Positions 15,101 to 60,000 of a stretch of DNA of 64,000 nucleotides are shown here, in pieces. The DNA comes from Arcuatula senhousia (Eukaryota > Mollusca > Bivalvia > Mytilida > Mytilidae). The stretch is from contig OZ020307.1 in the NCBI GenBank assembly GCA_963971305.1, positions 4,477,501 to 4,541,500 on the forward strand. Direction: 5' to 3'. Position 1 is the stretch's first letter, and the number at the start of each line of letters is the position of its first letter. Made by a program: the position numbers and the translations under genes. The notes below the pieces were generated by a model, which saw only the letters and a list, made by a program, of their open reading frames with translations, was not told where the DNA came from and ran no database searches.

Positions 15101-18100
15101 AAAGTTAGTAGCATTCCAGTAAGTGTCTGTCGTCTCCCAGTCTCCGTCTGACCAAATGACATCAGGTTTATATGTATTCACCAACTCGTACAGCTCTGGC
15201 ATGGTCTTCCTCTGAAATAATAGGCTTATATTAACCTGTGGTGAAATCTCAAGTAATAAGATAAAATATTTATGTGTTTATATATGTAAATGAAAGACTA
15301 TTTACATCATAACTCTAAGTAACAATATACGGGTAGTCTAATTGAATATCAATTTCATCAATCTCGATAATTCAAAAACCATATCCTGTATCACACTCTT
15401 ATGACTCTTAGAACACATGAGTCTCTTAGTTATGGATTAAATTATAGCTAAGAGGGTGATCATTAATAAAGTAGATTGATCCCCTGAGAAAAGCATTGTA
15501 AGCTGGGGTTCAGCCTGTTCAAAGGGAAGTAATCCCCACTATCACTCTCTTGGGTATATGTTACTTGATAATTATACTGAATGATTTTAGTGTTTAACCC
15601 TCATACTTTCAATTTTATTTTGTGTGTATTTGCAATTTTGTTCCCTCAAAATATGATGCACTATAACGTAACTACATGTAAATAGATAAAATTAGGTTCC
15701 TCTGTCAGAGTTAAATATGCCCTTTTAATATAATTATCAATCATGTCAAATCTAGGCTTTGAATGAGCCTGTTGCATAGGAGGGTAACATTGAAAAGGTC
15801 AACACCCTCTGAAGCATGTGATATTTGAATGTTTCATTGTAAATTTTCATGTCATTGTGATTGATTCAGCTGTCATGATTGCATTACTTAAAATATCTTC
15901 TTATGAAAAAAAGGTACAAAAATGAACTACATGGTAAATGTAAATAAAAGTAACATGAAATGTCTGTCTGAGTGATATTGGTGCTTCAGGTAAAAATGGT
16001 AAATGATACTAATTTTGACATGCAATATTCAGAATATATCTATACATGTATCTGGTAAGTATAAATATTTGACACACTTTGTTGTACATAGTTACTTTTG
16101 ACAAAAATACCTGAACAAAGTCCTGTGATTTGAAGCCAGATGCTTTATCCTGTTCATACAATACCTGAACAAAGTCCTGTGATTTGAAGCCAGATGCTTT
16201 ATCTTGTTCATACAATACCTGAACAAACTCTTGTGACTTGAAGCCAGATGCTTTACCTTGTTCATACAATACCTGAACAAACTCTTGTGACTTGAAGCCA
16301 GATACTTTATCTTGTTCATACAATACCTGAACAAACTCTTGTGACTTGAAGCCAGATTCTTTATCTTGTTCCTACAATACCTGAACAAACTCTTGTGACT
16401 TGAAGCCAGATGCTTTATCTTGTTCGTACAATGGATTAAACCATTCCAGTAATGAATGATACAGTCCCAAGTGTAGCTTGGTTTTAGTCTTGATGGACGT
16501 CGCTAGTTCACCTGAAAAACATGGCATTGCAATTAAGTGAAATGTTACAAAGTTACATGGTTTTTATACTATAACATGAATAGGTATAAGTTAAACCCAC
16601 TAATACAGAAGTAAACAAAATGAAAAATTAATTAATTAGGACACAGATGCCCCTGCACCCAAAACAGGAAGTCTTACAGGTCTGAAAATCACTTAGGAAA
16701 TTTAGTCTGTGGTACCATGGAAGTAAATGACAGAACCACCTTGTTGAAATTTAAATCATTCTTACATACAATTTCTGAGAAAAACTGGTTGCCCCGTCCG
16801 AATCAGGAAGTAATGGTTTGACTGGCTTGAAAATTGCTTTATCCATACAATAGTGCTGAAAATTGCTTAATCCATACAATAGTGCTGAAAATTGCTAAAT
16901 CCATACAATAGTGCTGAAAATTACTTAATCCATACAATAGTGCTTAAAATTGCTTAATCCATACAATAGTGCTTAAAATTGCTAAATCCATACAATAGTG
17001 CTGAAAATTGCTTAATCCATACAATAGTGCTTAAAATTGCTTAATCCATACAATAGTGCTTAAAATTGCTAAATCCATACAATAGTGCTGAAAATTGCTT
17101 AATCCATACAATAGTGCTTAAAATTGCTTAATCCATACAATAGTGCTTAAAATTGCTTAGACCATACATTTTGTGAACCAAGGGACAATCAAAAGGAGAA
17201 AAAAGGAAACAGGGGCCTCATTAGAGGGCAGAGGCAAACTGCTAAGGGCAGGGCACAGTGTCCCTCTTGTTTGGCCTAGCTCAGACCCTATGACTTGTAC
17301 ATGTATATTTGTAAAAAAAATATAATTTCCTGAACATCTCAGAGGTATATAATATACAATTTTATTTGAAAGATTTATTTGTAAAAAATCAAAATCCATT
17401 TAATTTTTTAAATACTTTTCATAACTATCTACAAACCAACAAGATCTTTGTTAGGTCCTACATCCATAGCATTCCAATTCCAGGAATATTTTGATGGCCA
17501 ATTAGTAAATCCTTCATGATGCTTAGTTACCAAGACAATATATCTAATAAAAAAAGGTCATCGGAAAAAGGAATAAATAAATAAATATAGAGATACATCT
17601 GTACATGTATACAAATACAAATATTTCATTTTTATTTTTATTAGCACAATCTCATAGTAAAGCACATGGTTAAGATCCTAAAAAATCAAATAAATATACA
17701 TGTGAAAAACTTAAATTTATATTTCACTCTAAAAATAACTTCAAGATAGTTCCACTACTTCCAGTTTTTGCTTGCTCTTCTTAAAAGATATTTGATCTTT
17801 GTCAGGAAGAGGGTCTGTCTTTGGCATTTTAAGATTGGTTTTGAATGATATACACATTATATTTCTAATCAAGTGCTGATTGGACAACAGCAAGCAAGAA
17901 CCTCTGGTCACATTGAAGGCTGCTGGCTGTTTTCCATTGCAGATTTTTAAATTGCCCAATTATGTTGTAGGTTGTGCTGCTTACACTTATTCCACTCCTG
18001 TTTATCTTCTGATAATAATACAAATGTGAGTGTCTACATGTATGTGATTTATCAAAATGTAACATGACTTCACAAATTATTTCACAGTAATCAAGTGTTC

Positions 18101-20654: not shown

Positions 20655-21480
20655 GATATATGTATACGTCCTAAATTTTGACGTAGCTATAGTCTTTTTA
20701 AGACGTGTCTTTAAGTATATTCTGTTTTTAGACGTGTCTATAAGTACATTCTATTTAAGACGTGTCTTTAAGTGTATTTTGCTCTAAGACATAAAGTAAA
20801 TGTATAATTCGTATGCTTTAAGACGTGTGTCTTTAAATACAATCTGTTGTAAGACATGTCCATAAGTATAATCTGTTTTAAGACGTGTCTTAAAGTAAAT
20901 ATGTTTTAAGAGGTGTCTTTGAGTGTAATCTGCGTTAAAACATGTCTATAAGTATAACATTTTTGAAGATCATTAAGTAAGGTCTGTTTCAGATGTGTCA
21001 TTAAGTAAGGTCTGTTTCAGATGTGTCATTAAGGATGACCTGTTTAAAGACGTGTTTATAAGTTTCATCTATTTAAAGACGTGTCTTTAAGTTTAATCTG
21101 TGTTTTTATGACGTGTGCCTTTATGTATAATCTGTTTGAAGACATGCCTATGAGTATAATCAGTTCCAAGACATGACTATAAGTATAATCTGTTTTAAGA
21201 TGTCTCTTTAGGTATACTTTGTTTTAAGACGTGACTTTAAGTATAATCTGTGTTTCAAGACACGTCTTTAATCATAAATCTGTTTCAGGCGTGTCTTTAA
21301 GTATAATCTGTTCTAAGACGCGTCTATAAGTATAATCTTTTTAAAGACATGTCTTTTAGTATAGTATGTTTTAAGATGTGTCTATATATATATAATCTGT
21401 TTTGAGACGTGTCTGTAAGTTTAATCTGCTATTAAACATTTCAATAAGTATAATATGTTTAAAAATGTGTATAAAGTTTT
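20655..21480 (+). repeat. 29-bp minisatellite, left part
   Basis: Degenerate units of about AAGACGTGTCTTTAAGTATA ATCTGTTTT, some 28 copies with much variation. The same unit resumes at 28444, so one array has been split. Confidence 0.9.
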
Positions 21481-25260: not shown

Positions 25261-27380
25261 CAAAATTGTACCAGGTTAAACCCCAATCATATCAAACAGC
25301 GGTGGCACAATCCACTTTTATTTCGAGGTCCATACTCCGAAACGTAATTCAACAACCGAGGCGACACTATCCGCTAAATGATTTTAAATTCTATAAACAA
25401 ACGGACGACAGCATCTGCACTTCAAAATATAAATTGCCAAGCTACGTATTATACCATCCGTACTAAAAAATCAAAATATGAACCAAACGAGCAACACCAT
25501 CCGTACATCCAACTGGACAACATGCTCGTACTTTAAAGGGAAAAATCAACAAAACGGACGACACCATCCATGCTTCTGAAATTATAAATTACCAAGACGG
25601 ACACCATGTGTTTACTTTAGTCAAAATTAAAAATTCAACAAAAAAAACACACCAAGTCCTTGCTCCAAAATTATTGAATTTACCAAACGGACACCATGCT
25701 CGTACTTCAAAATAAAAAATTAATCCTACAGACACCATGCTCATACTTCAAAATAAAAATTTAATCCTACAGACATCATGCTCGTACTTCAAAATAAAAA
25801 ATTAATTCTACAGACACCATGCTCGTACATCAAAATTAATCATACCGACACCATGCTCGTACATCAAAATTAATCATACAGACACCATTGCTCGTACTTC
25901 AATATCAAAAATTAATCATACATACACCATGCTCATACTTCAAAATCAAAAATTAATCCGACACCATGCTCGTACTTCAAAATCAAAAATTAATCATACA
26001 GACACAATGCTCGTGCTTCAAAATCAAAAATTAATCCTACAGACACCATGCTCGTACTTCAAAATCAAAAATTAATCATACAGACACCATGCTCGTACTT
26101 CAAAATCAAAAATTAATCCTACAGACACCATGCTCGTACATCAAAATTAATCATACAGACATCATTGCTCGTACTTCAAAATAAAAAATTAATCATACAG
26201 ACACCATGCTCATACTTCAAAATCAAAAATTAATCATACAGACACCATTCTCGTACATCCAAATTAATCATACAGACACCATGCTCGTACTTCAAAATCA
26301 AAAAATAATCCGACACCATGCGCGTACTTCAAAATCAAAAATTAATCATACAGACACCAATGCCCGTACCTCAAAATCAAAAATTAATCTTACAGACACC
26401 ATGCTCGTACTTCAAAATCAAAAATTAATCCTACAGACACCATGCTCGTACATCAAAATTAATCATACAGACACCATTGCTCGTACTTCAAAATAAAAAA
26501 TTAATCATACAGACACCATGCTCATACTTCAAAATCAAAAAATATTCCGACACCATGCTCGTACTTCAAAATCAAAAATTAATCATACAGACACCAATGC
26601 TCGTACTTTGAAATCAAAAATTAATCATTCAGACACCATGCTTGTACTTCAAAATAAAAAATTAATCATACAGACACCATGCTCGTACTTCAAAATCAAA
26701 AATTAATCCTACAGACACCATGCTCGTACATCAAAATTAATCATACAGACATCATTGCTCGTACTTCAAAATCAAAAATTAATCATACAGACACCATGCT
26801 CATACTTAAAATCAAACATTTATCATACAGACACCATGCTCGTACATCAAAATTAATCATACAGACACCATGCTCGTACTTCAAAATCAAAAAATAATCC
26901 GACACCATGCGCGTACTTCAAAATCAAAAATTAATCATACAGACACCAATGCCCGTACCTCAAAATCAAAAATTAATCTTACAGACACCATGCTCGTACT
27001 TCAAAATCAAAAATTTATCCTACAGACACCATGCTCGTACATCAAAATTAATCATACAGACACCATTGCTCGTACTTCAAAATAAAAAATTAATCATACA
27101 GACACCATGCTCATACTTTAAAAATTAATCATACAGACACCATGCTCGTACTTCAAAATCAAAAAATATTCCGACACCATGCTCGTACTTCAAAATCAAA
27201 AATTAATCATACAGACACCAATGCTCGTACTTTGAAATCAAAAATTAATCATTCAGACACCATGCTTGTACTTCAAAATCAAAAATTAATCATGCAGACA
27301 CCATGCTCGTACTTCAAAATCAAAAAATTTTACCAACTGAACACTAAGTCCTTGGCCTTGCTTCAAAATTAAAAATCAAC
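25260..27380 (+). repeat. ~41-bp minisatellite with higher-order structure
   Basis: Units of about ACACCATGCTCGTACTTCAA AATCAAAAATTAATCATACAG, mixed with 34-36 bp deletion variants. Rare variants recur at long distance: TGCGCGTACTTC at 26309 and 26899, and AAATATTCCGACACC at 26539 and 27166, showing ~590-625 bp blocks copied as a whole. Short methionine-initiated ORFs are incidental. Confidence 0.93.
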
Positions 27381-28180
27381 AAAACGGACACCAGGTCATT
27401 TATATTGCTATGAAATTAAAAATTAACCAAACGGACACCATGCCCGTGCTTCAAAATGAAAAATTAATCATACAGACACTATGCCCGTGCTTCAATTTAA
27501 ATAATTAACCAAACGGACCATGCCCGTGCTTCACAATTAAAAAATTAACCAAACGGATCCATGTCCGGGCTTCAAAATCAAATATTTACCAAGTGGACCC
27601 ATGTCCGGGCTCCAAAATCAAATAATTACCAAATGGACCCATGTCCGGGCTTCAAAATCAAATATTTACCAAACGGACCCATGTCCGTGCCTTATAATTG
27701 AAAAATCAACCAAACAGACCCATGTCTTTGCTTCAAAATTAAAAATTAACCAAACGGACCAATGTCTTTGCTTCAAAATTAAAAATTAACCAAACGGACC
27801 CATGTCCGTGCTTCAAAATTAAAAATTAACCAAACGGACCAACGTCCGCTTCATCATTAAAAAATTAACCAAACGGACCCATGTCCGCTTCATCATCAAA
27901 AAATTAACCAAACGGACCCATGTCCGCTTCATCATTAAAAAATTAACCAAACGGACCCATGTCCGTTTCATCATTAAAAAGTTAACCAAACGGACCCATG
28001 TCCGCTTCATCATTAAAAAATTAACCAAACGGACCCATGTCCGCTTCATCATTAAAAAATTAACCAAACGGACCCATGTCCTTTTCATCATTAAAAAGTT
28101 AACCAAACGGACCCATGTCCGTGCTTCAAAATTAAAAAATTAACAAAACGGACCCATGTCCGTACTATAAAATCTTTCAA
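27380..28180 (+). repeat. 39-bp minisatellite (CCGCTTCATCATTAAAAAATT)
   Basis: Units of about AACCAAACGGACCCATGTCC GCTTCATCATTAAAAAATT. It grades out of the preceding 41-bp family, and the core (27830-28100) is nearly uniform. Because 39 is a multiple of three, the minus strand shows a repetitive 95-codon frame. Confidence 0.92.
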
Positions 28181-34000: not shown

Positions 34001-37000
34001 GACGGTCCACAAAGATGTCTTTTACGTGCATGAAGCCTTGCGCTCTCCATAAATGTTGGCCCACTATGGTCAGCTGTCAGGGTTTCCGTATTATAGACCT
34101 GACAACCCCGCGGACGAGGGCCACATCATTCAGCCACCTAAGGTACACACTTGGTCGCTCTGTGGGCTGAGCACTGACCGCCTCTTACGACAAGCTTAGG
34201 CTCTGCTGCGGGCATATTCGCCACCCGGGCCCCGCACGGGACCAGAAAGGAAGACAATTACGAAGTATAATTTAAGGGTATCAATGTATTTACTTGAATC
34301 AACTAAGTTAAAAAGATTTTCAAATATGTTTACAAAATAAAAGTACCTAAAACTTTTGACACTAGTGTAGCCTTTTCTTCTGTGATATCTGGATTTATAT
34401 AGCTTTTTATAACGTCTTGTAAAACTACTGCAGAGAGTGAGTTTAACCCTGAAGACACGGTGCTGTAGAAAGAAAATATATAACTTCTGAAAATATTTGA
34501 GGTTTCTATTATCCAATGGCATATACCCTATGGTCATTTACAAAAAAGAGAATGATTTCTTGCAGAATTATAGGTAATACTAAACAATGAGCTGACAAAT
34601 ATATCATGAAGAAATACAAAATCTTGAGTGGCCCATGTCTGAAAATGACAAATCTAATGTAACAATATACAAGAAAGTTTCGTTACTCTGAGCAGAAAAC
34701 ATAAAAGAGAATGACTGAATAAGAGGTAAATGCATGGAGATCTATTAAAATAAATGAAATAAGAAGTTATATAAAATAACGTTGAATTCTTACCTTAAAG
34801 CACCACTAAACAAGGAAGCCACAAACAGACCTGGAAAGCCTGGCAGAGTACCAAGAACATCCATTACAAACAGAGGTAACAGCTTAAAAAATAATTACAA
34901 ATGTGCTATGTTTAAAAAAAAAATGAAATTTATCCTGTGGGCAAAGGATATTACATTTCTGTGTTTCGTATTGATGCAGGCTTTTATTTATTTAATTAAA
35001 AAAAAACTGTTCAAAGAAATGAAAATGCCCATTTTTCAGTAACTTGATTATGTACAGCTAGACAATAATGATACAAAATGTGTCAATTATCTTATGAACT
35101 GTGACTATTTAATTATTATGTAAGGCATCAAAATGCAAGTTATGCAATACTCTTAAAATATTTTTGAGTAAAATAGGGGGCCAATACCCTGGATGTATCC
35201 TATATCTGGTCAACTTTTATACAATTAATATGTATTTGTAATTACCTGATCAGAGGTCTTGACAAGGCCAAACTTAAAAGGATCGCAATGACTGTATAAT
35301 CCATATACCACCATACCAATGAGACAGCATAGGTATAATATACCACATAGACCAGGGAAATTCAACCACATGGCTCTAGAAAGAAAATAAGACAACACCG
35401 GTACAATATACCACATAGACCAGGGAAATTCAACCACATGGCTCTAGAAAGAAAATAAGACAACACCGGTACAATATACCGATAGACCAGGGAAATTCAA
35501 CCACATGGCTCTAGAAAAAAAACAAGACAACACCGGTACAATATACCACATAGGCCAGGGAAATTCAACCACATGGCTCTAGAAAGAAAATAAGACAACA
35601 CCGGTACAATATACCACATAGACCAGGGAAATTCAACCACATGGCTCTAGAAAGAAAATAAGACAACACCGGTACAATATACCACATAGACCAGGGAAAT
35701 TCAACCACATGGCTCTAGAAAGAAAATAAGACAACACCGGTACAATATACCGATAGACCAGGGAAATTCAACCACATGGCTCTAGAAAAAAAACAAGACA
35801 ACACCGGTACAATATACCACATAGGCCAGGGAAATTCAACCACATGGCTCTAGAAAGAAAATAAGACAACACCGGTACAATATACCACATAGACCAGGGA
35901 AATTCAACCACATGGCTCTAGAAAGAAAATAAGACAACACCGGTACAATATACCACATAGACCAGGGAAATTCAACCACATGGCTCTAGAAAGAAAATAA
36001 GACAACACCGGTACAATATACCACATAGGCCAGGGAAATTCAACCACATGGCTCTAGAAAGAAAATAAGACAACACCGGTACAATATACCACATAGACCA
36101 GGGAAATTCAACCACATGGCTCTAGAAAGAAAATAAGACAACACCGGTACAATATACCCCATAGGCCAGGGAAATTCAACCACATGGCTCTAGAAAGACA
36201 AGATACAACAGAGGTAAAATATACCACTTCAACTACAAGGCTCTAGAACAAAATTGGGACATCAGAGATCTAATGTAACAAAACAAATCATTCAGGAAAA
36301 CTGTAGAAAAATATTCAGTATCGTAAAACATGCTGATTCCGACCAAAGCAATCATGATAAAAATCAAACTGCATGGTAATACTTTGAAGAAACTATACAT
36401 AAGAAGGTTTGCACGGCTGTGGAAAACCCCACGTCTAAGTGATATAAAACTTAAGTTTATTTCAGACGCGAATCATCAAATTGACAATAGCCAAGGAATG
36501 AACGGATCAATTAGTATCCAGTGTATAAACCATATCTCATTTACTATACTAAAAATCTTACATCTGAGCTCTCCTTAACGTCGGGCACGTACAACATCTT
36601 TGTACCTGGGCCTGGTTTACACCATAGATTGCCACCCATGTAAATGTTCCACCAATCACCAAGGCCCAGGCACTATGTCTCGTAATGGGATCTGGACTAA
36701 AACTGCAAAAATAGATAATTAGGCTCAGAAATAGACATGTTTAAACAAATAATAAGACCATCATTATAATATTCTTTAATTAATTTTGAGGTATGGATCA
36801 TAGTGGTATGGATACAGGAGGATATTTAAAAAAAGCATGTACATAAAACAAGGCTTGTTTGTTAGTCTATCTTAAAAACTTTCTTTCATCAGCACTTAAG
36901 GATGTTACAAAATTTTGGGCAACCTCAATTTGAACATGAAAAGCACAAAAATAATCAAATTACCAAATCATTTAATCATCACAGCTAAAAACTACCCTCG

Positions 37001-40000
37001 ATTCTAACAACACAATCACTTACTCTGTAAAGTATACCCTTCCGCTCTCGTAAGCTGCTGACCACGCCTCCCCGAAGCCCCCGACCTCCATGCTTCCTTT
37101 TATCAAAATGGCAAGTAAACCAGAAATCATGATAATGACTTGGAAAGAATCTGTCACTAAAACAGCCTTCATACCGCCCTAAAAATTGGAATATTTTTAT
37201 ACCCATTCATAGTACAGTTTTTAAACGAATCAAAGTTTGGCAATCACATTTAATTCATATTTCTTGTAAATCGTGAACATTTCATGTCTTGAGAGATACA
37301 TACGAGTTTCATAAGCTTGCTCGAAAAGTTTGAGCCAGTATAATTTAGTTCTTTCGGGGACATTGCGATCTTCATGTCCCCGATACGTTTTGCCTTGCTT
37401 CGCTTTTCTTAAACGGTTATCGGACATATGAGGTTGATCATCCTGGTTCAGTAGTTCATAACATTATACGTCCGGGAAAAAATGCGTTCGAATATATATT
37501 TTTAATTCGATAAAATGACATTGTAACTAGGTTAAGTGCATTCAAACCTGAATAAAAATAATAATGAACATGACTGTGCATTTAAATAATGCATGTTTAA
37601 GTTCTTTATCGCACTTCCCTGTATTCTTTGAAGGAATGTTTTAATTCTAATCTAACTCTAATGCAGATATAAGCTTGGGGTATCAAATAAGTTATCTAAC
37701 ATACTTACAATGGAGGTATATAAAGTGCACACTGCACCGACTGAGATCACCGAACCCCATAGTGTAAATCCAGTGACTAAAATATATTGTTAAAATATCA
37801 AACCTATACCAATTTAAAGCACTAATGATTGGAAATCTAATTTCAATTTAAATGATTGTAAAACAAATTTCAATTTTCAAAATTGTACATCATATATAGT
37901 CAATATATCATATCATGGCATTTCTTGTTTTCTAGATCATGTGACAAGAATAAAGAACATGTTATGGACACCAGAAGAATTCAATATTTACACAAACCGA
38001 TTATTCCTTACATGTTGATACGATGAGGTTACTGTCAAAAAAATGTTTCCCGTTGTGGAGATAATTTTTTACTTTAAATGTGTTAAATCATTTTATTCGA
38101 GCGTTGACCTTTTTTTACTTGCTCGAATAAGGCGTTCCTTTTTCTTCTGCAACTTTTTGGTTGCTCTCGAAATGTTAATTATATAACGGTCGCAATACAT
38201 AAACAAGAGTTAACACTAAAGTATGTCTCGCCTGCCGGTGTAACATACCAGTTTCCCCCCCTACTCATCTTCCCCCCCGGAAGAATCAGTATATACTGAG
38301 ATTTCCCCCCGGAAATATCAGTATATACTGATTCTTCCCCCCTAAAAATCGGGTAGGAAAAATGAGTATATACTAGATTTTCCCCTTTTCGCAAAACCAT
38401 ACTGAGGTTTCCCCCTTCATATATGGACTGTGTAGTCTTACTTGTAATATGTTATTTTTTATCACTATGTCAATGTAAAACTTCTAATAACGCTCTTATC
38501 TCAATATATATGGAATGATAATTCAGCTCAACGTTTTGAAGAGGCACTAAACTCACCTGAAATAAAGTATAAAATTGATGAACTTAATGATAAAGACTAT
38601 TCTGATAACACTGAGTTGATGGTCAGTGACCTGAATTCGATTTATAAAGAAGCAGCTGAAAAGTCCTTAAAAAGGAAAATAAGCAATAATAATAAACTTA
38701 ATAGGAATAAAAAAGTAAATAAACAACCTCAATGGTACAATTTGAATTTATCTAATATGAAAAAAAAGTTAAATGAAAAGGCATCATTATTAGAAAAGTT
38801 TCCAAGGGACCCAGTTATAAGAGGCTCCTTTTTTAGTTTTCTCAAAGTATACAGAAAAACAAGAAAAAGAGTCAGAAGAGAACACTACAAAAATATAATA
38901 GAACAACTTGACTCTCTTCATGAAAATAATCCACAAAAATATTGGTCTCTTTTACGTAGTCTTTCTGAGCATAAAAACTCTTTAGATGGATCAGAAATTA
39001 ATGCTGAACTTTGGAAAAAATATTTCCAAGATCTCAACAGAGAGCCTTTAAACCCTCCTTTTGACATTGATAACTTACTTAATAATCTAGAAAAAGATAA
39101 TATATTTACAGAACTAGACGCAACCATTAAAAATTCTTAAATTTCTAAAGCTATAAGCTCATTAAAAAATAAAAAGTCATGTGGTTTTGATCTCATTTCT
39201 AATGAAATGATTAAAAACAGCCAAACCATTCATCTAAATTCATTAAATAAAACATTCAATACCATTCTTAGCACAAGTAAATATCCAAAAGAATGGTCAA
39301 GAGGATATATTGTTCCCATATTTAAAAGTGGAAGCAAAGATGATCCCTCAAATTACAGAGGAATCACTGTAGTTAGTAATCTTGGTAAATTGTTTGCAAA
39401 AATACTAAATAATAGATTAGAAAACTTTATGATATCTAGAAATATGATAAAGAAAGAACAAATAGGATTTTGTAAAGGTAAAAGAACTGTAGATCATATT
39501 TTTGTATTAAAAACCCTTATTGATAAATATACACAAGGAGAGAACAAACAGCTCTTTTCTTGCTTTGTAGATCTCAGAAAAGCCTTTGACACAGTCTGGC
39601 ATAAAGGTTTATTTTATAAATTAAAAAAGATAGGAACAAGTGACCTTTTCTATAATATTATAAAGCAAATGTATGGTAATACTGAGCTATCAGTCAAAAT
39701 AGACAAAAATAATGTTACTGACAGCTTCCAATCTAATATTGGAGTCAGACAAGGCGATAACTTGAGCCCCAACCTCTTTAAAATTTTCATAAATGACTTG
39801 CCAGAAATTTTTGAAACAGAATGTGATCCTGTTAATCTTAACAATATTAATTTAAACTGCTTACTCTATGCAGATGACCTTGTATTGGTATCAAAAACTG
39901 CAGAGGGGCTCCAAAACTCTATTAACAAATTAAATACCTATTGTAAGACATGGGGCCTAGAAGTAAATATCAAAAAGACAAAAACTATAGTTTTTAATAA

Positions 40001-43000
40001 AAGTGGGAAGACAGTTAAAAACACATTCTATTTAAACAATAACCCCATTGAAAAGGGTAGGACATACAAGTATTTAGGACTCAATTTTTCAACCTGTGGA
40101 TCCTTCACAGAAGCCAAGACTGACCTATACAACAGAGGTCTTAAAGCGCTCTATAAAATGACAAAATATTTTGAATCTAAGAGACCAAGCATAAAAACAA
40201 TTATGCACTTATTTGATCACACTGTGAAACCAATTTTGTTATATGGTAGTGAGATATGGGGAAGTTTTATTGGTAATAAACTAAAAGAAGGTGATTATTG
40301 TTTTATTTCTAAAATATTTAATAACTTAAAACAGGAACATGTTCATTTAAAATTTTGCAAATATTTATTAGGGGTTGGAAAAAGGTCCACATCTTCAGCA
40401 GTGATGGGAGAATTGGGAAGGTATCCACTTTACACCAATATATTTACTTATATGTTTAAATACTTGCAACGTCTATGCTCTTCTAATGACATTTTACTAA
40501 AAAATGCATATGAAGAGTCAATAAATTTAGACAATGCAGGTAAAAACAGTTGGTACAGTTGTATGAACTCTATCATGAAATACTTAAATATTAATCTTAA
40601 TATGTGCATCACTTCCAAGAGTAACATAAAATTATTAATTATTAACAAAGTAAAAACTATTTACAACAAAATCTGGAAAGACGATATATTCAATGATAAT
40701 AAGAGTAGGTCTGGAAATAAATTGAGAACCTACAGATTATTTAAAAATATTTTCTCTTATGAACCATATTTAGACTACTTTGCTGAAGACAAAAGAAAAC
40801 TATTTACAAAGTTCAGAATAAGTGCACACAGGTTAGAGATAGAAACAGGAAGATATAAAAATATCCCTGCAGAGAATAGAATTTGTGGGTTGTGTGATGC
40901 TGGAGTGGGAGATGAAATTCATTTTCTTCTCCAGTGTCCAAAACTTAGCAAAGAAAGATCTAAATTTCTACAGGAAATAAATAATATTAATAATAACTTT
41001 TGTAGATTGGATACCACTTCCCAATTCATCTGGCTATTGTCTTCTGAAGACCAAATAATTTTAAATAAACTTATTTATTTCTTACAATTAATTAACACTG
41101 AAAGAAATAAAATTCTTGACGCATGAATATTATTTAAATACACATAGTATGTACCTTTAAAAGTACCAACTTGGGTCACTGTGCTAATTAAAATATTTTT
41201 CCCTTTTACTCTATACATTGATAATTCTCATTTTCATATGTTTTCACTCCCTTTGTTAATCTTAATTTTATCAATATATTGTACAATCATTCTTTATTTA
41301 TTTTAAGTTGTAACAGCTCTACATGGGCGTCATAATTGACATAATAAAATTATTCTATTCTATTCTATTCTATTCTGTAATGCGTATAGTTTTATTTGAT
41401 CTATTTTTTTAAGATTGCCATCAAAATATTTTTGGGGGGTTTTAAGTCCTAATTGACTTGATTACGTTTTGTAATTATCCAGGACAAAGGCTAATCTCAA
41501 TATTTTGTTTTTCGCTTCATATCGTGCTCTTCATTTGATAGCTACTTTTGGCATTACAGCCAACTGGTTTGTTATAAGGTACAGTTTTACATGTAAAGAT
41601 TATGAAATAGATTATATTACAGAAAATAAACAGAACATGCAAATATAAAGAACACCCGCAACAATTGTTTTAGGTTTTTGTTTTTTTGTTTTTTTTTTTG
41701 TTTGCGATATAGATACACTTTCCAACTTTGCAATAAATTGCTATGAGAAACCGTTTAATCAGTCTTGTTGCATTGAACTAAGCCCTTAAAGGTCAACATG
41801 TTAGAAAAGCATAATTATTCATTAGATTTAATATTTGTAAAAATATATTCAAAACATATATTGTAAGCGCAGTTTTCAAGCATGATTAAAAATACAAGAA
41901 CATACTCTTTGGCCTTATCCGAGCGCAAATAATTCTATGTCGGCTCGTTAAACGGGACATACATTGTAGATAAGCAGCAGACCTAAAAGCGCAGTCTACC
42001 ATTAGAGACTCCTACCTAAAGCTGAACACCAAAAATCGAAAGCCTATAAATAGCAGTTACTGATAAACATAAACCGTGACAGATGCACAGACGGGCGGAT
42101 ACATGTACCAGGGCATTTCTATATATCCAGTCTAGATGCTAGAATAATTCGATTTTCACTTAGCGTGCACACAGACAATATGGGTCTTTACAAATATCTA
42201 CATCTCAAATATATGCTATATATATTGATAATAAAAAAAGATACAACAATTAATTAAAAAACATTAGTAATTATCTTTGAAATATTGAAAACCGCGCACT
42301 TAACATTAACAGTCATTAATATCGGAACGGTTTTGAATAGGGAAAAGATCAGTATGGCGGAAAAATGAGTATGTGTTTACACATACCAGATTTTCCCTTG
42401 GGTGAAAACGTAGTATATACTAGTTTTTCCCCGGGGGAAAATCTAGTATATACTAGATCTTCCGGGTGGGAAAGCTCAATATATACTCATTTTTCCGGGG
42501 GGAAATTCCAGTACGGGGGAAAAACTAGTATGTAACACCGGCACCATCAGAAACAATTATTCTTTCTTACTTCCACTATATTTTGAATTTACATGGATTT
42601 TCAGTTTCTGAGATCAAAAGATGTTTATAGAACTTAAATATTGCTAATATATGCAATAAAATAATCAAAGTCACTCAACCAGAAATCAAGGTCAAGGTCA
42701 AAAGATCCGGATACAACTGTACTAAGCTACTACTGGGGCATATGCATACCAAGTTTCATCAACCTACAACTTATAGTTCTTGAGATATATGGAGATGCTC
42801 GCAAAAATTTTCCATTGCTATTATATGTATTGAAAATTGTCAGTCACTCAACCGGAAAATCAAGAACAAGGTCAAAAGATGGGGATGCAACTGTGCTAAG
42901 CTACTACTGGGGCATATGCATACCAAGTTTCATCAACCTATGGCCTATAGTTCTTGAGATATGATGGTGCTCGCAAAACTTTTCCATTGCTATTATACGT

Positions 43001-46000
43001 ATTGGAAATTGTCAAAGTCACTCAACCGGAAAATCAAGGTCAAGGTCAAAAGATGGGGATGCAACTGTCCTAAGCTTCTACTGGGGCATATGCATACCAA
43101 GTTTCATCAACCTAGGACCTATAGTTCTTGAGAGATGGAGATGCTCGCAAAACTTTTCCATTGCTTTTATATGTATTGAAAATTGTCAAAGTCACTCAAC
43201 CGAGAAGTCAAGGTCAAAATCAAAAGATGGGGATGCAACTGTCCTAATCTTCTACTGGGGCATATGCATACCAAGTTTCATCAACCTAGGACCTATAGTT
43301 CCTGAGATATGGAGATGTTCCCAAAATTTTTCCATTGCTATTATATGTATTGAAAATTGTCAAAGTCACTCAACCGGAAAATCAAGGTCAAGGTCAAAAG
43401 ATGGGAATGCAACTGTGCTAAGCTACTACTGGGGCATATGCATACCAAGTTTCATCAACTTAGGAACTATAGTTCTTGAGATATGGAGGTGCTAATAAAA
43501 CTTTTCCAAAAATTTAACACCGCCGCCGTCGTCGCCGCTGCCGCCACCGCCGGTAAAGTAACACCTATGTCCCGCTCTGCTTCGCAGGCGAGATAAAAAT
43601 AAAACAAAACTTCATAGAAAACTCAAAACGTCTATAAATTAACAGATACAAAACAATACAGATGCTTTGAGAATGGGTTTGAAGTCCGGACAATTTTATA
43701 GTAGTTATTTTAAATGTTAATAAAAGTTCGTGTCGTCTCGTCCACATATGACCCCTTATGTTATTTCCCTATATAGACAAGAACCAGAACTTCTCCAAAC
43801 ATTATTTAAAAAAAAGATACAAATAAAAATTAATTCAGACCACTAGAATAATCTACCCTAGATATTGAAGAAGTTTTTAATTTTTCAAATTCATCTTGAA
43901 AGGCAAATGAAAAATAAAATGTGTGTGAACAAGGTAGAGAACTAGGAGAATACACTGGCGTTAGGGTCCATCATAATATGTATTTTTTCTATCTATTATG
44001 TGTCTATAAAAAATTTGACTCTCGCTACATTACTTTTACAGGAAAAAAAAATAGAAGTATAGTGAGGATCAAAATTTTTTATACACTTAATACATAAGAA
44101 AAGATAATCCGTGGAGCCAAATGACTGTGGGTTAAAAGAGTGCTTATTGTGGTATCATGACAAAACGAGATAGTTACCTGCATTCAGAGCTAATGATGGA
44201 GCATATAAAACCAAAGCCATGTACAGCAACTGAAAATCAGAATAATAGTAATGTGAATAAAACGAATTGAAATTCTATATATGTTTGTTCTATACAAAAC
44301 AAATTTGAACTGTTTGACTATATTTCAAAAAAACAAAAATCGACTCAAGGGGGTCTGAATCGGTCATCAGAATTAAATGCTAGAATAGAAGATAATGAGA
44401 CATGGAATAAGTTTACACGATCTACAAATATCAACAGCAAAAATTTCACAATTAAAACAGTCAGTCGCTGCTCGCTGTTTTGCAATTGGCCCTTGCTTAA
44501 AAATTAATACAATGCATAGGATTTAAAACCTTCCTCAAATTGTGAAAGATTAGAATAACTAATGTAAAGAAAACGAGTAGAAAAAAAAACCTTCCTGGAT
44601 TATGACACAAACATATAAAATGTGGCGGGGTTAAACTAGTTTTTGGGTCCAACCTTACCCAACAAAGCACAAAATAACATACAGTAAATATCAAATAGAT
44701 GAAAAATCAACTTAGCAAGAGAGAAATAAAGGTTATAACAAAAGAACCGAACTTGGAGAATTAATCTCAAATGTCCATAAGACAAGACAAAACAAGGAAG
44801 ACATACCGGAAAAAATGAAGATCGCAATGGTCCTGACTTGGTACAGGCATGTAAAAAAAAAAAGGGTGGGTTAAACCAGGTTTTAAGGCGCGAAAATGAG
44901 ACATAAAGACAACATGAAAAAAGACGTAGAAGGACTCCTGTGAGAACACTCGTTGTTACCGATAACTATCATAGAAACATCTCTCGACAGATCTATAAAA
45001 ATCGAAAATTAAGATTCTAAATACAACACGCTGACAGTTCAAAAATATAATGTTTTGGTGCTGTATCATCACACAGAACCGATTCACTTAATCGTTATAA
45101 TGCTAAAAATGACACTTGGATAATATTGTAGTAAATACTATCAAACTATCTATATCCCCCCCCCAAAAAAAAGAGGCAAAAATTCAAAAATTTAACCAAA
45201 TGTTAACTCATATCCTTTATAAGTTTTTTTTGCCAAATGTTCATTCCTTACATGGATTTTTTTTTTAATTTGCTTGCTTTATAATTAACATTAAAATAAA
45301 ACAAGAGTTAACACTAAAGTATGTCTCGCCTGCCGGCACCATCAGAAACATTTATCTTTCTTACTTCCACTATATTTTGAATTTACATGGATTTTCAGTT
45401 TCTGAGATCAAAAGATGTTTTTATAGAACTTAAACATTGCTAATATATGCAAAAAAAATAATCAAAGTCACACAACCAGAAAATCAAGGTCAAGGTCAAA
45501 AGATGGGGATGCAACTGTGCTAAGCTATTACTAGGGCATATGCATACCAAGTTTCATCAACCTAGGACTTATAGTTCTTGAGATATGGAGGTGTTTGCAA
45601 AACCTTAACATTGGTATTACATATATGTATTAAAAATTGTCAAAGTCACTCAACCAGAAAATCAAGGTCAAGGTCAAAAGATGGAGATGTAACTGTGCTA
45701 AGCTATTACTGGGGCATATGCATACCAAGTTTCATCAACCTAGGACTTATAGTTCTTGAGATATGGAGGTGCTCACAAAACTTTTCCATTGCTATCATAT
45801 GTATTGAAAATTGTCAAAGTCACTCAACCGGAAAATCAAGGTCAAGGTCAAAAGATGGGGATGCAACTGTGCTAAGCTACTACTGGGGCATATGCATACC
45901 AAGTTTCATCAACCTAGGACCTATAGTTCTTAAGATATGGAGGTGCTCGCAAAACTTTTCCATTGCTTTTATATGTATTGAAAATTGTCAAAGTCACTCA

Positions 46001-49000
46001 ACCGGAAATGCAAGGTCAAGGTCAAAAGATGGGGATGCAACTGTGGTAAGCTACTACTTGGGCATATGCATACCAAGTTTCATCAACCCAGGACCTATAG
46101 TTCTTGAGATATGGAGGTGCTCGCAAAACGTTTCCATTGCTTTTATATGTATTGAACATTGTCAAAGTCACTCAACCGGAAATGCAAGGTCAAGGTCAAA
46201 AGATAGGGATGCAACTGTGGTACGCTACTACTTGGGCATATGCATACCAAGTTTCATCAACCCAGGACCTATAGTTGTTCAGATATGGAGGTGCTCATAA
46301 AACTTTTCCAAAAAGTTAACGCCGCCGTCGTCGTCGCCGCCGCCGCCGGTAAAGTAACACCTATGTCCTGCTCTGCTTCGCAGGCGAGACAAAAACGACT
46401 TCAACTAACATGACTAACAGCTTTTATTGTAATTTGCGAATTAATTAGGCGTATATAAAAGATGTAAAAGATGTTCTCTATTCGCTTCGCGCATGTCTTT
46501 TTAATTTATAAGACAAAGATAATTGCATCCGTTTTTTTACATTTAAGGTAGATTGGTTGTCTTTTACTGAACATCTTTTTGCACAACTTTCAGTTTTATT
46601 ATGCTAACTATTAAAAATTATTTTTATTGGATTTAGTACACATCATCAAAATTGATAATTTCAACAAAAATTCAAAATAAATACACCTTTTGTCTCAGGT
46701 TCTGTCTTGTTGAATTGAATTTCTATCGATTTGATTTTTACTGTGTGTTAGTTTGTGCTTTGTTATTGATTATCAAAAGGGGGAAGGTTGGGCCCAAAAA
46801 ACGTTTTTAACCCCACCACATTTCAAATGTGCCTGTCCTAAGCCAGGAGTTTTTATCAAAGCTGATGTTTGTATTCGTCGAATTTATGTTAATGGTTTTT
46901 GTCTCGCCTGCGAAGCAGAGCGGGACATAGGTGTTACTTTACCGGCGGCGGCGGCGGCGGCGTTAACTTTTTTGGAAAAGTTTTATGAGCACCTCCATAT
47001 CTCAAGAACTATAGGTCCTGGGTTGATGAAACATGGTATGCATATGCCCAAGTAGTAGCTTAGCACAGTTGCATCCTCATCTTTTGACCTTGACCTTGAT
47101 TTTCCGGTTGAGTGACTTTGACAATTTTCAATACATATAATAGCAATGGAAAAGTTTTGCGAGCACCTCCATATCTGAAGAACTATAGGTCCTAGGTTGA
47201 TGAAACTTGGTATGCATATGCCCCAGTAGTAGCTTAGCACCGTTGCATCCCCATCTTTTGACCTTGACCTTGATTCTTCGGTTGAGTGACTTTGACAATT
47301 TTCAATACATATAATAGCTATGAAAAAGTTTTGCGAGCGCCTCCATATCTCAAGAACTATAGGTCCTAGGTTGATGAAACTTGGTATGCATATGCCCCAG
47401 AAGTAGCTTAGCACCGTTGCATCCCCATCTTTTGACCTTGACCTTGATATTTTGGTTGAGTGACTTTGACAATTTTCAATACATATAATAGCAATGGAAA
47501 AGTTTTGCGAGCACCTCCATATCTCAAGAACTATAGGTCCTAGGTTGATGAAACTTGGTATGCATATGCCCCAGTAGTAGCTTAGCACAGTTACATCCTC
47601 ATCTTTTGACCTTGACCTTGATTTTTTGGTTGAGTGACTTTGATTATTTTTATTGCATATATTTGCAATGTTTAAGTTCTATAAACATCTTTTGATCTCA
47701 GAAACTGAAAATCCATGTTAATTCAAAATATAGCGGAAGTAAGAAAGAATAATTGTTTCTGATTGTGCCGACAGGCGAGACATACTTTAGTGTTAACTCT
47801 TGTTTGTCAAGAAGAGGGTCTTTCATTTGCACTCTAGGATTGCGCTTGAATCATCAGTTATTTTTTTTTCAATCTAGTGCCAATTGAAAAACAGCGATCA
47901 GGGACCACTGGTCACATTGAAGGCTGATGGCTGTTTTCCATTGTGGATTTTTTTTAAATTGTCCTTTACGTTGTAGGTTGTGTCGCGTACACTTATTCCA
48001 TATCTCATTATCTTCTACCTTATTTTCAAATTTCAATATTTTTACGTACTTTTTAAGGGGAAATAATTTGTATAGAAATAATAAGAAAAAAGAACAATTT
48101 TCACTTTTTTTCAAAGATTTTGTTGGTGAACCTAAAACTTTTAAGTCTGTGTGAAACAAAGATTTTCACAAATCTTAATAAATATCTATGGAGTAGATTT
48201 TCCTTAATAGATGGAAATGCAAATGATCCCTATTGATTCTATATGAAAAGTACTTAAACATACATTCTACAAAAATTCTTATGGCGAGCTCGATTTTATT
48301 ATCTAAATTTTAAGTACCCTTCTAGGTCTCAGTGTCACTAAAATTTAAAATTTAAGAAAATTCTATGAACCAATTTTCCAACCCTATCTACCTTAAAGTA
48401 AAACTTCTATTGCATCTGAGAATTTTGATCAAAAATGGAGTCCTATGATGAGCTGAACAACATAAACATTTAAGACAAGAAAGGATTTTTTTCTTTATTA
48501 TGACTTTCAATGCAAACGTGATTTTTGATTTAATGTCCACACCCCATATTTAGGATACATATGATGACAACTTGGGCAAACTCGAGACTTCCTGGAGAAC
48601 TCTGTTGCTAAAAGTCTTTGGCTACTAGTAAAGCAAAAAATATTTTGATATTAACTCTTGATTTTACTGGACACGATCTTAATTTCACTTGATTAACAAG
48701 ATTTCCTCTGCCTCCTATGAATTTAAATATTACAGTGACAATCAATATAAAGCACCACCTTTTCGCGATGAATCTTGACACATCAGTTTTATACCATTCC
48801 TTCAAAATAAACAACTACCCCTAGTTTGGTTTACACTTATGGGATCAAAAGAGTTGCGGTCGAAATAGTTTACCAACGACGGACGCAAATTGATGACAAT
48901 AGCTCGCCTTATTGGAGGAAAAAAGTAAATTTCCATAGGTCTTCTTCTAACCATATGCAACAATGCAGTGCTTTAAAGTCTTAATTTAACTAAATAAAAT

Positions 49001-58894: not shown

Positions 58895-60000
58895 TCGAGG
58901 CCAGAAGGCGCTGCTCGCTGTTCTGCAATTTGCCCATGGTCTAAATAAAATGCATATAATTCCAATCCAGTCCTGAAATAGTCACAGACAGACCCCCTTC
59001 TTAAACAAGGAACAGAAAACATCAAAAGACAAGTACAAACAAAAGCTTTGTCAAAGATTCCTGGCTTATAGGACAGGCGCATTTAAAATGTGGCGGGGTG
59101 AATCTAGTTATTTGGACCCAACCTTCCCCTATAAATATTCCCAGACAAAGCACATAAATTAACTCACAATACAAGAGTTAACATGCACTAAAGTATGTCT
59201 CGCCTGCCGGCACCATCAGAAACAATATTTTTTTTACTTACACTTTATTTTGAATTTATAAGGTTTATCAGTGTCTGAGATCATAAGGTACGTGTTTATA
59301 GAACATAAACATTGCTAAAATATGCAATAAAAATTATCAAAGTCACTCAACCAGAAATTCAAGGTCAAGGTCAAAAGATGGGGATGCAACTGTGCTAAGC
59401 TACTACTGGGGCATATGCATACCGAGTTTAATCAACCTAGGATCTATAGTTCTTGAGATATGGAGGTGTTCGCAAAACCTAACCATTGCTATTATATGTA
59501 TTGAAAACTGTCAAAGTCACTCAACCGGAAAATCAAGGTCAAGGTCAAAAGATGGCATGCAACTGTGCTAAGGTATTACTAGGTCATATGCATGCCAAGT
59601 TTCATTAACTCAGGACTTATAGTTTTTGAGATATGAAGGTGCTCACAAAACCATACCATTGCTATTATATGTATTGAAAATTGCCAAAGACACTCAACCG
59701 GAAAATCAAGGTCAATGTCAAAAGATGGAGATGCAACTGTGCTAAGCTACTACTGGGGCATATGCATACCAAGTTTAATCAACCTAGGACCTATAGTTCC
59801 TGAGATATGGAGGTGCTCATAAAACCTTACCCAAAAAGTTAACGCCGCCGCCGCCGTCGGTAAAGTAACACCTATGCCCCGCTCTGCTTTCCAGGCGAGA
59901 CAAAAAATCAAATCGATCAAAGTTCACTAAAGAGAATCTAAGACAAAAGACAACAAGAACAAGCGAACGGTAGAGGAACACTCGCAGTGACTGACGGTAG
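58895..60000 (-). repeat. Family A copy split by 174-bp-repeat copy 4
   Basis: 58895-59170 matches positions 1-290 on the opposite strand (GCTGCTCGCTGTTCTGCAAT, AAATGTGGCGGGGTGAATCT). After the insertion, 59908-60000 continues as in 61840-61930 (AGAATCTAAGACAAAAGACA). Confidence 0.75.
59171..59907 (+). mobile_element. 174-bp-repeat element, copy 4, inserted in a family A repeat
   Basis: Starts ACAAGAGTTAACATGCACTA, includes the empty-site sequence CGCCTGCCGGCACCATCAG, about three units, then CGCCGCCGCCGTCGGTAAAG and CCAGGCGAGACAAAAA. The flanks (CTCACAAT to the left, AGAGAATCTAAGACAAAAGA to the right) belong to one family A copy, which shows insertion into it. Confidence 0.87.

Follow-up and report, generated by a model that had tools for sequence, protein, structure and literature searches.

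A boundary minisatellite carrying 14 acceptor copies in intron 6 of an SLC5A8-like gene of the bivalve Arcuatula senhousia, with the exon-proximal copy predicted to be spliced

The stretch of Arcuatula senhousia DNA analysed here (64,000 nucleotides, referred to below as the window) carries an SLC5A8-like gene and an alpha-L-fucosidase gene on its minus strand. In the first of these, most of intron 6 is occupied by tandem copies of its own boundary with exon 7. The features concerned are as follows, in window coordinates, with a bar marking splice junctions.
30865–53268, minus strand: SLC5A8-like gene, coding span as mapped over 15 coding exons (start codon not fixed)
36562–36702, minus strand: exon 6 of this gene, with 3′ end CAGAT|GTAAGA
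36243–36561, minus strand: unique part of intron 6, 319 nt, lying 5′ of the array and holding an acceptor-like site at 36300
35246–35375, minus strand: true coding exon 7 of this gene, 130 nt, with donor CAG|GTAATT and an open reading frame

Joined exons 5–15 match Pfam SSF (E 3e-20) and, in the PDB, sodium-coupled monocarboxylate transporter 1 (7sl9_A, E 8e-97) as well as a multivitamin transporter, bearing out the SLC5 assignment made in the preliminary description of this DNA. Among the best 120 of 2258 protein matches passing the cut-off, the closest is a 673-residue protein (80%) and the next is from Mytilus galloprovincialis (75%). Intron 6 is in phase 2 owing to the ending of exon 6 at 36562 given above, and spans 1186 nt by the mapped coordinates, of which the array makes up 867 nt. 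The exon adjoining the array is coding exon 7 in the exon map, as had been proposed. None of the same best 120 of 2258 homologues has a residue inserted at the exon 6/7 junction (120/120), and the stretch corresponding to exon 7 has the query’s 44 residues in 110 of them, 45 in six, 46 in two, 43 in one and 35 in one. Most of these homologues seem to be predicted genes or transcripts from other species, and they therefore support the start of exon 7 and not the splicing of the allele studied here.

TRF reports a single array at 35318–36227 with a 68 bp unit, 13.4 copies, 95% matches and a score of 1645, together with a higher-order period of 271 bp (3.4 copies); going by this score, the repeat is plainly not a product of chance. 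Cutting the minus strand at each CTAG|AGCC defined 14 intron 6/exon 7 boundaries between 36242 and 35375, of which 13 are upstream copies and the last, at 35375, is the true site.
36242, 36189, 36121, 36053, 35985, 35917 and 35849, minus strand: boundaries CTAG|AGCC of copies 1–7
35781, 35714, 35646, 35578, 35510, 35443 and 35375, minus strand: boundaries CTAG|AGCC of copies 8–14, the last being the true start of exon 7
35376–36242, minus strand: array of 13 upstream boundary copies, 867 bases
36190–36242, minus strand: degenerate edge unit of 53 bases
35647–35917, minus strand: units 6–9, the 271-base twin of units 10–13
35376–35646, minus strand: units 10–13, 271 bases, letter-identical to units 6–9

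The array is composed of twelve units (ten of 68 bases and two of 67) and the degenerate 53-base unit, which we infer to be the oldest-looking copy. All 14 boundaries read TAG|AGCC, in agreement with the earlier account of 67/68-bp units with an acceptor in each. The number of copies in that account, thirteen, holds for the full-type boundaries, the real one included, but leaves one further, degenerate boundary uncounted.

A full unit of 68 bases consists of about 58 exonic and about 10 intronic bases, the intronic part being TTCTTTCTAG. Bases 1–39 of the unit agree with the true exon 7 at 39 of 39 positions, bases 40–58 at 14 of 19 and bases 59–68 at 3 of 10, and the exonic share is thus larger than the roughly 45 bases first suggested. 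Of 127962 positions, 14, with the array copies counted in, give a 19-base match as good as that of bases 40–58. Across bases 38–55 the unit and the true exon differ in four codons, three of the differences being synonymous. The core is homogenised, half of the 12 core units (3, 5, 6, 9, 10 and 13) being identical to the consensus, whereas unit 1 and the true exon past base 39 diverge from it. Variants at unit bases 25, 31, 56 and 61, together with the 67-base units, tell some of the copies apart. The identical 271-base block hints at a recent change in the array, for which the copy number is that of a single assembly.

The same 23-base site is present at 10 of the 14 acceptors, including the true one. 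The decoy at 35646 is identical to the true site across 376 nt on the upstream side and 39 nt on the downstream side; only downstream features (exon body, donor) or position can therefore separate the two. On a matrix built from the 13 other acceptors of the gene, which is a rough guide only, the ten identical sites score 4.8, in the middle of the leave-one-out range of those 13 acceptors (−2.2 to 9.3), and the other four boundaries score 2.2–3.0. Of the gene’s 1125 other AGs, 74 score 4.8 or more, at least nine of these being the array’s own second AGs. Units 2–13 contain no AG other than that of the boundary TAG and one immediately after it, and in core copies this second AG (TAGAG|) scores 6.0 on the 13-site matrix, against 4.8 for the TAG. 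Neighbouring competing acceptors are familiar from NAGNAG tandem acceptors, which are spaced by 3 nt; the copies described here resemble them in this respect and differ in their spacing of 68 nt.

Branch-point-like motifs vary along the array. In the ten identical sites CTTAT lies only 12 nt before the end of the AG, the second acceptor has TTTAC at a distance of 25 nt, two decoys lack a motif of this sort, and the first acceptor (36242) has CTGAT 19 nt upstream, which is better placed than the motif of the ten identical sites. Outside the array, the acceptor-like site at 36300 on the minus strand of intron 6, TTTTTCTACAG|TTT, scores 10.7 on this small matrix and surpasses the other acceptors of the gene; splicing to it would run into a stop after four codons.

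A stop codon follows each of the 13 upstream TAG acceptors after 3–27 codons, as anticipated in the preliminary description. These stops are positioned 116–987 nt 5′ of the exon 7/8 junction in all 13 cases, and such mRNAs are therefore predicted targets of nonsense-mediated decay. With TAGAG| as the acceptor, a single copy out of 14 (35443) reads open, adding 66 bases and 22 residues. The best donor-like site within the units, CAT|GTGGTT, has 6 of 9 consensus letters, compared with 6–8 in the 13 listed real donors, four of which have 6; since these four real donors match no better, the array could harbour poison exons or small introns, although this is not favoured. A recursive splice site, which needs an AG directly followed by GT, does not fit the TAG|AGCC found at all 14 boundaries.

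A second array of this kind, of the donor type, is located in the alpha-L-fucosidase gene.
16381–16512, minus strand: exon 3 of the alpha-L-fucosidase gene, whose 3′ end and donor make up copy 1 of the donor array
16106–16432, minus strand: donor-type array in which the end of exon 3 and its CAG|GTATT donor recur as six 54-base copies
16381, 16327, 16273, 16219, 16165 and 16111, minus strand: last exonic bases of the copies

The unit of 54 bases is a multiple of three, yet the TAG opening copy 2 closes the frame. Over exon 3 and the array, the frame stays open only with the exon-proximal donor at 16381, and the other five donors lead to a stop. Using a query protein that lacks exon 2, the closest match to this gene among the best 120 of 6372 passing is from M. 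galloprovincialis (72%); an 18-residue insertion at the array junction is found in none of these 120 homologues, which have the query length there in 119 cases and one residue more in one. The donor array is the mirror image of the acceptor array of the SLC5 gene, and in both genes the sole main splice site that preserves the frame is the one adjoining the exon body. The M. galloprovincialis homologues of both genes carry the same longest contig figure, 94721750 bases, on the strength of which the gene neighbourhood may be conserved.

Arrays of this type are known from amphioxus as ‘mirages’, described in the accessible portions of two reports as minisatellites of intron–exon boundaries, of acceptor and donor types, that show concerted evolution and length instability and occur in Adh3, the globins BflGb6 and BflGb9, troponin C and PGBD5 (PMC3087553, PMC3902484). 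Decoy-acceptor arrays are accordingly not an undescribed class, contrary to the preliminary description (PMC3087553, PMC3902484). The intron 6 array shares with mirages, as these portions present them, the tandem boundary copies, splice signals in many of the copies, a homogenised core and divergent edges, with acceptor and donor types both occurring in amphioxus as in the window, and its 68-base unit falls within the 10–72 bp of the amphioxus Adh3 mirage (PMC3087553, PMC3902484). Its unit spans the boundary, its copies carry the AG acceptor signal, and its evolution looks concerted inside and excludes the edges; from these sequence features we class it as a mirage-type boundary minisatellite. 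Compared with the amphioxus arrays as reported there, it differs in belonging to a bivalve and to an SLC5 gene, in its 14 acceptors and in having only about 10 intronic bases per unit; BflGb6 has 6 or 3 units of 150–160 bp in two haplotypes. It is probably the first mirage-type array noted in a bivalve, on limited searches: a limited search of the literature found no boundary array in bivalves or other molluscs, and the available text on an abalone intronic minisatellite does not mention a boundary copy.

Two further systems are related in part, as far as the consulted sections of the papers describe them. In the human ABCA7 intron 18 VNTR, the 25-bp unit starts with a splice donor and retention of one unit leads to an early stop, which is similar to the situation here; it differs in lying on the donor side and in having a unit not described as an exon copy (PMC5954066). 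Intron gain in the potato RdRp gene also involved a tandem duplication across an intron–exon boundary that inherits acceptor signals, but a new intron arose there (PMC4974935), whereas none is known here, the protein junction being unchanged. An intron gained in this way could nevertheless be present, since the donor-like sites of the units, which agree with the consensus at no more than 6 of 9 letters, equal four of the 13 listed real donors in this respect.

The array is quite probably a boundary minisatellite with 13 extra copies, likely formed by tandem duplication and unequal exchange, of which the 3′-most copy is predicted to be spliced because it is nearest to the exon 7 donor site. In a founding duplication, exon base ~58 would have become linked, through a short ATT/TTT match, to the ~10 bases at the end of the intron, and subsequent rounds would have homogenised the core, extending into bases 1–39 of the true coding exon. 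The pattern is that of tandem-repeat turnover sparing the edges, and this turnover seems to extend into coding sequence. Most simply, the array would be a neutral minisatellite, its extra copies being skipped through cross-exon pairing of acceptor and donor. The exon-proximal acceptor would then probably be used through exon definition, and some use of upstream acceptors is likely to occur and to feed mRNA decay. The array could be tolerated without any new splicing rule if exon definition favours the acceptor closest to the exon 7 donor, and upstream TAG acceptors, when used, would yield mRNAs with the early stops described above, which are predicted to decay. Working against the choice of the exon-proximal acceptor are the better-placed CTGAT at the first acceptor, the stronger acceptor-like site at 36300, the middling matrix scores of the ten identical sites and the higher scores of the second AGs in core copies. 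The available part of a study of human alternative 3′ sites reports that exon-definition settings tilt the choice towards the nearest site across the exon (PMC9225289).

The same study, in the part available, also finds upstream 3′ sites to be generally preferred, exon definition reducing this preference without necessarily reversing it (PMC9225289), and the amphioxus copies are considered in the accessible text to be capable of serving as cryptic splice sites (PMC3087553); owing to these two points, an appreciable part of splicing could go to the 13 decoys. The array may thus be a working one, in which upstream acceptors are frequently used, the transcripts are degraded and copy number lowers transporter output in the manner of a rheostat, a reading that we regard as unlikely. 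The general upstream preference in human data speaks for it, as do the stops 116–987 nt before the exon 7/8 junction with all 13 upstream TAG acceptors, the local identity of most decoys to the true site, and the association of a longer human ABCA7 VNTR with lower expression, as given in the consulted section (PMC5954066). The ABCA7 isoform retaining one unit is, according to the same section, unchanged with VNTR length (PMC5954066), and the arrays of amphioxus Adh3, globin and troponin C are reported in the accessible portions to leave regular splicing undisturbed (PMC3087553, PMC3902484), both of which argue against working decoys. In an extended form, each 68-base unit would add a frame-breaking acceptor, making copy number a rheostat that could vary even from cell to cell, and the array would with that of the fucosidase gene be one of many genome-wide; this is more doubtful still.

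An artefact of assembly, with copies added or collapsed, notably in the identical 271-base block, is improbable. Units 6–9 are letter-for-letter the same as units 10–13, as such an artefact would leave them, but genuine recent duplications look identical too, the units carry private variants alongside a degenerate edge, and another gene in the window also has a boundary array. The true copy number could be different, but the nature of the array would stay the same.

Folding of the RNA that conceals the decoys and exposes the true acceptor is very improbable. Six of 10 settings make the true AG more open than any of the 13 others (for example 0.82 at 37 °C and span 150), and the remaining four do not. 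When a shorter stretch was folded with shuffled exon tails, the openness of the true AG was equalled or exceeded in 11 of 60 cases at span 100 and 22 of 60 at span 150, and a control with two more units placed after it gives 0.15 versus 0.74 at span 100 and 0.59 versus 0.44 at span 150. Folding was dropped as a discriminator, the outcomes of the shuffled-tail and extra-unit controls being mixed and non-specific.

Least probable of all is an in-frame variation of the protein through the second AG (TAGAG|) of the last upstream copy, for although its 66 extra bases read open, inserting 22 residues, and AGAG ranks above TAG in core copies on a matrix whose 13 sites make it a poor judge, the second AG leaves just 1 of 14 copies open, no homologue among the best 120 of 2258 has an insertion at the junction, and a GAG acceptor beside a TAG is seldom chosen.

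The array provides a natural gene in which ten acceptors of the same 23-base site, with a decoy identical to the true site across 415 bases, compete for one upstream donor. First-acceptor choice by intron proximity and exon definition make predictions at opposite ends of the array, allowing a clean test between them, and the neighbouring fucosidase donor array offers the mirror test of splice-site choice. The first 39 bases of a coding exon appear to co-evolve with non-coding copies, and the array suggests that boundary minisatellites are not peculiar to lancelets.

At E 1e-3, and with the ends of some exon queries displaced by between one and a few bases, no further boundary duplication turned up among the remaining 14 coding exons of the SLC5 gene, and in the fucosidase gene exon 3 was the only one of 8 exons to show one. 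With a TRF array list merged by hand and splice sites taken from the two genes, random placement of 28 arrays against 42 splice sites gives a mean of 1.47 overlaps and a probability of 0.44 for two or more; for the 16 arrays with units below 100 bases the mean is 0.38 splice-site overlaps and P is 0.055, which is not significant. The overlap of minisatellites and splice sites in the window, seen for two of the 28 arrays, is not clearly beyond chance.

Other repeats are present in the window. Long minisatellites with units of 41/39 bases and 29 bases are found at 25690–28163 and 20688–21470, respectively, and the mapped exons of the SLC5 and fucosidase genes have no match within either. Related tandem arrays of 174-base units in both orientations, located at 42640–43508, 45455–46310, 46973–47670 and 59302–59831, probably represent a dispersed satellite family. 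Antisense to the SLC5-like gene within its intron 3, at 38448–41126 on the plus strand, is a reverse-transcriptase-like open frame with one in-frame stop, which we take to resemble a LINE.
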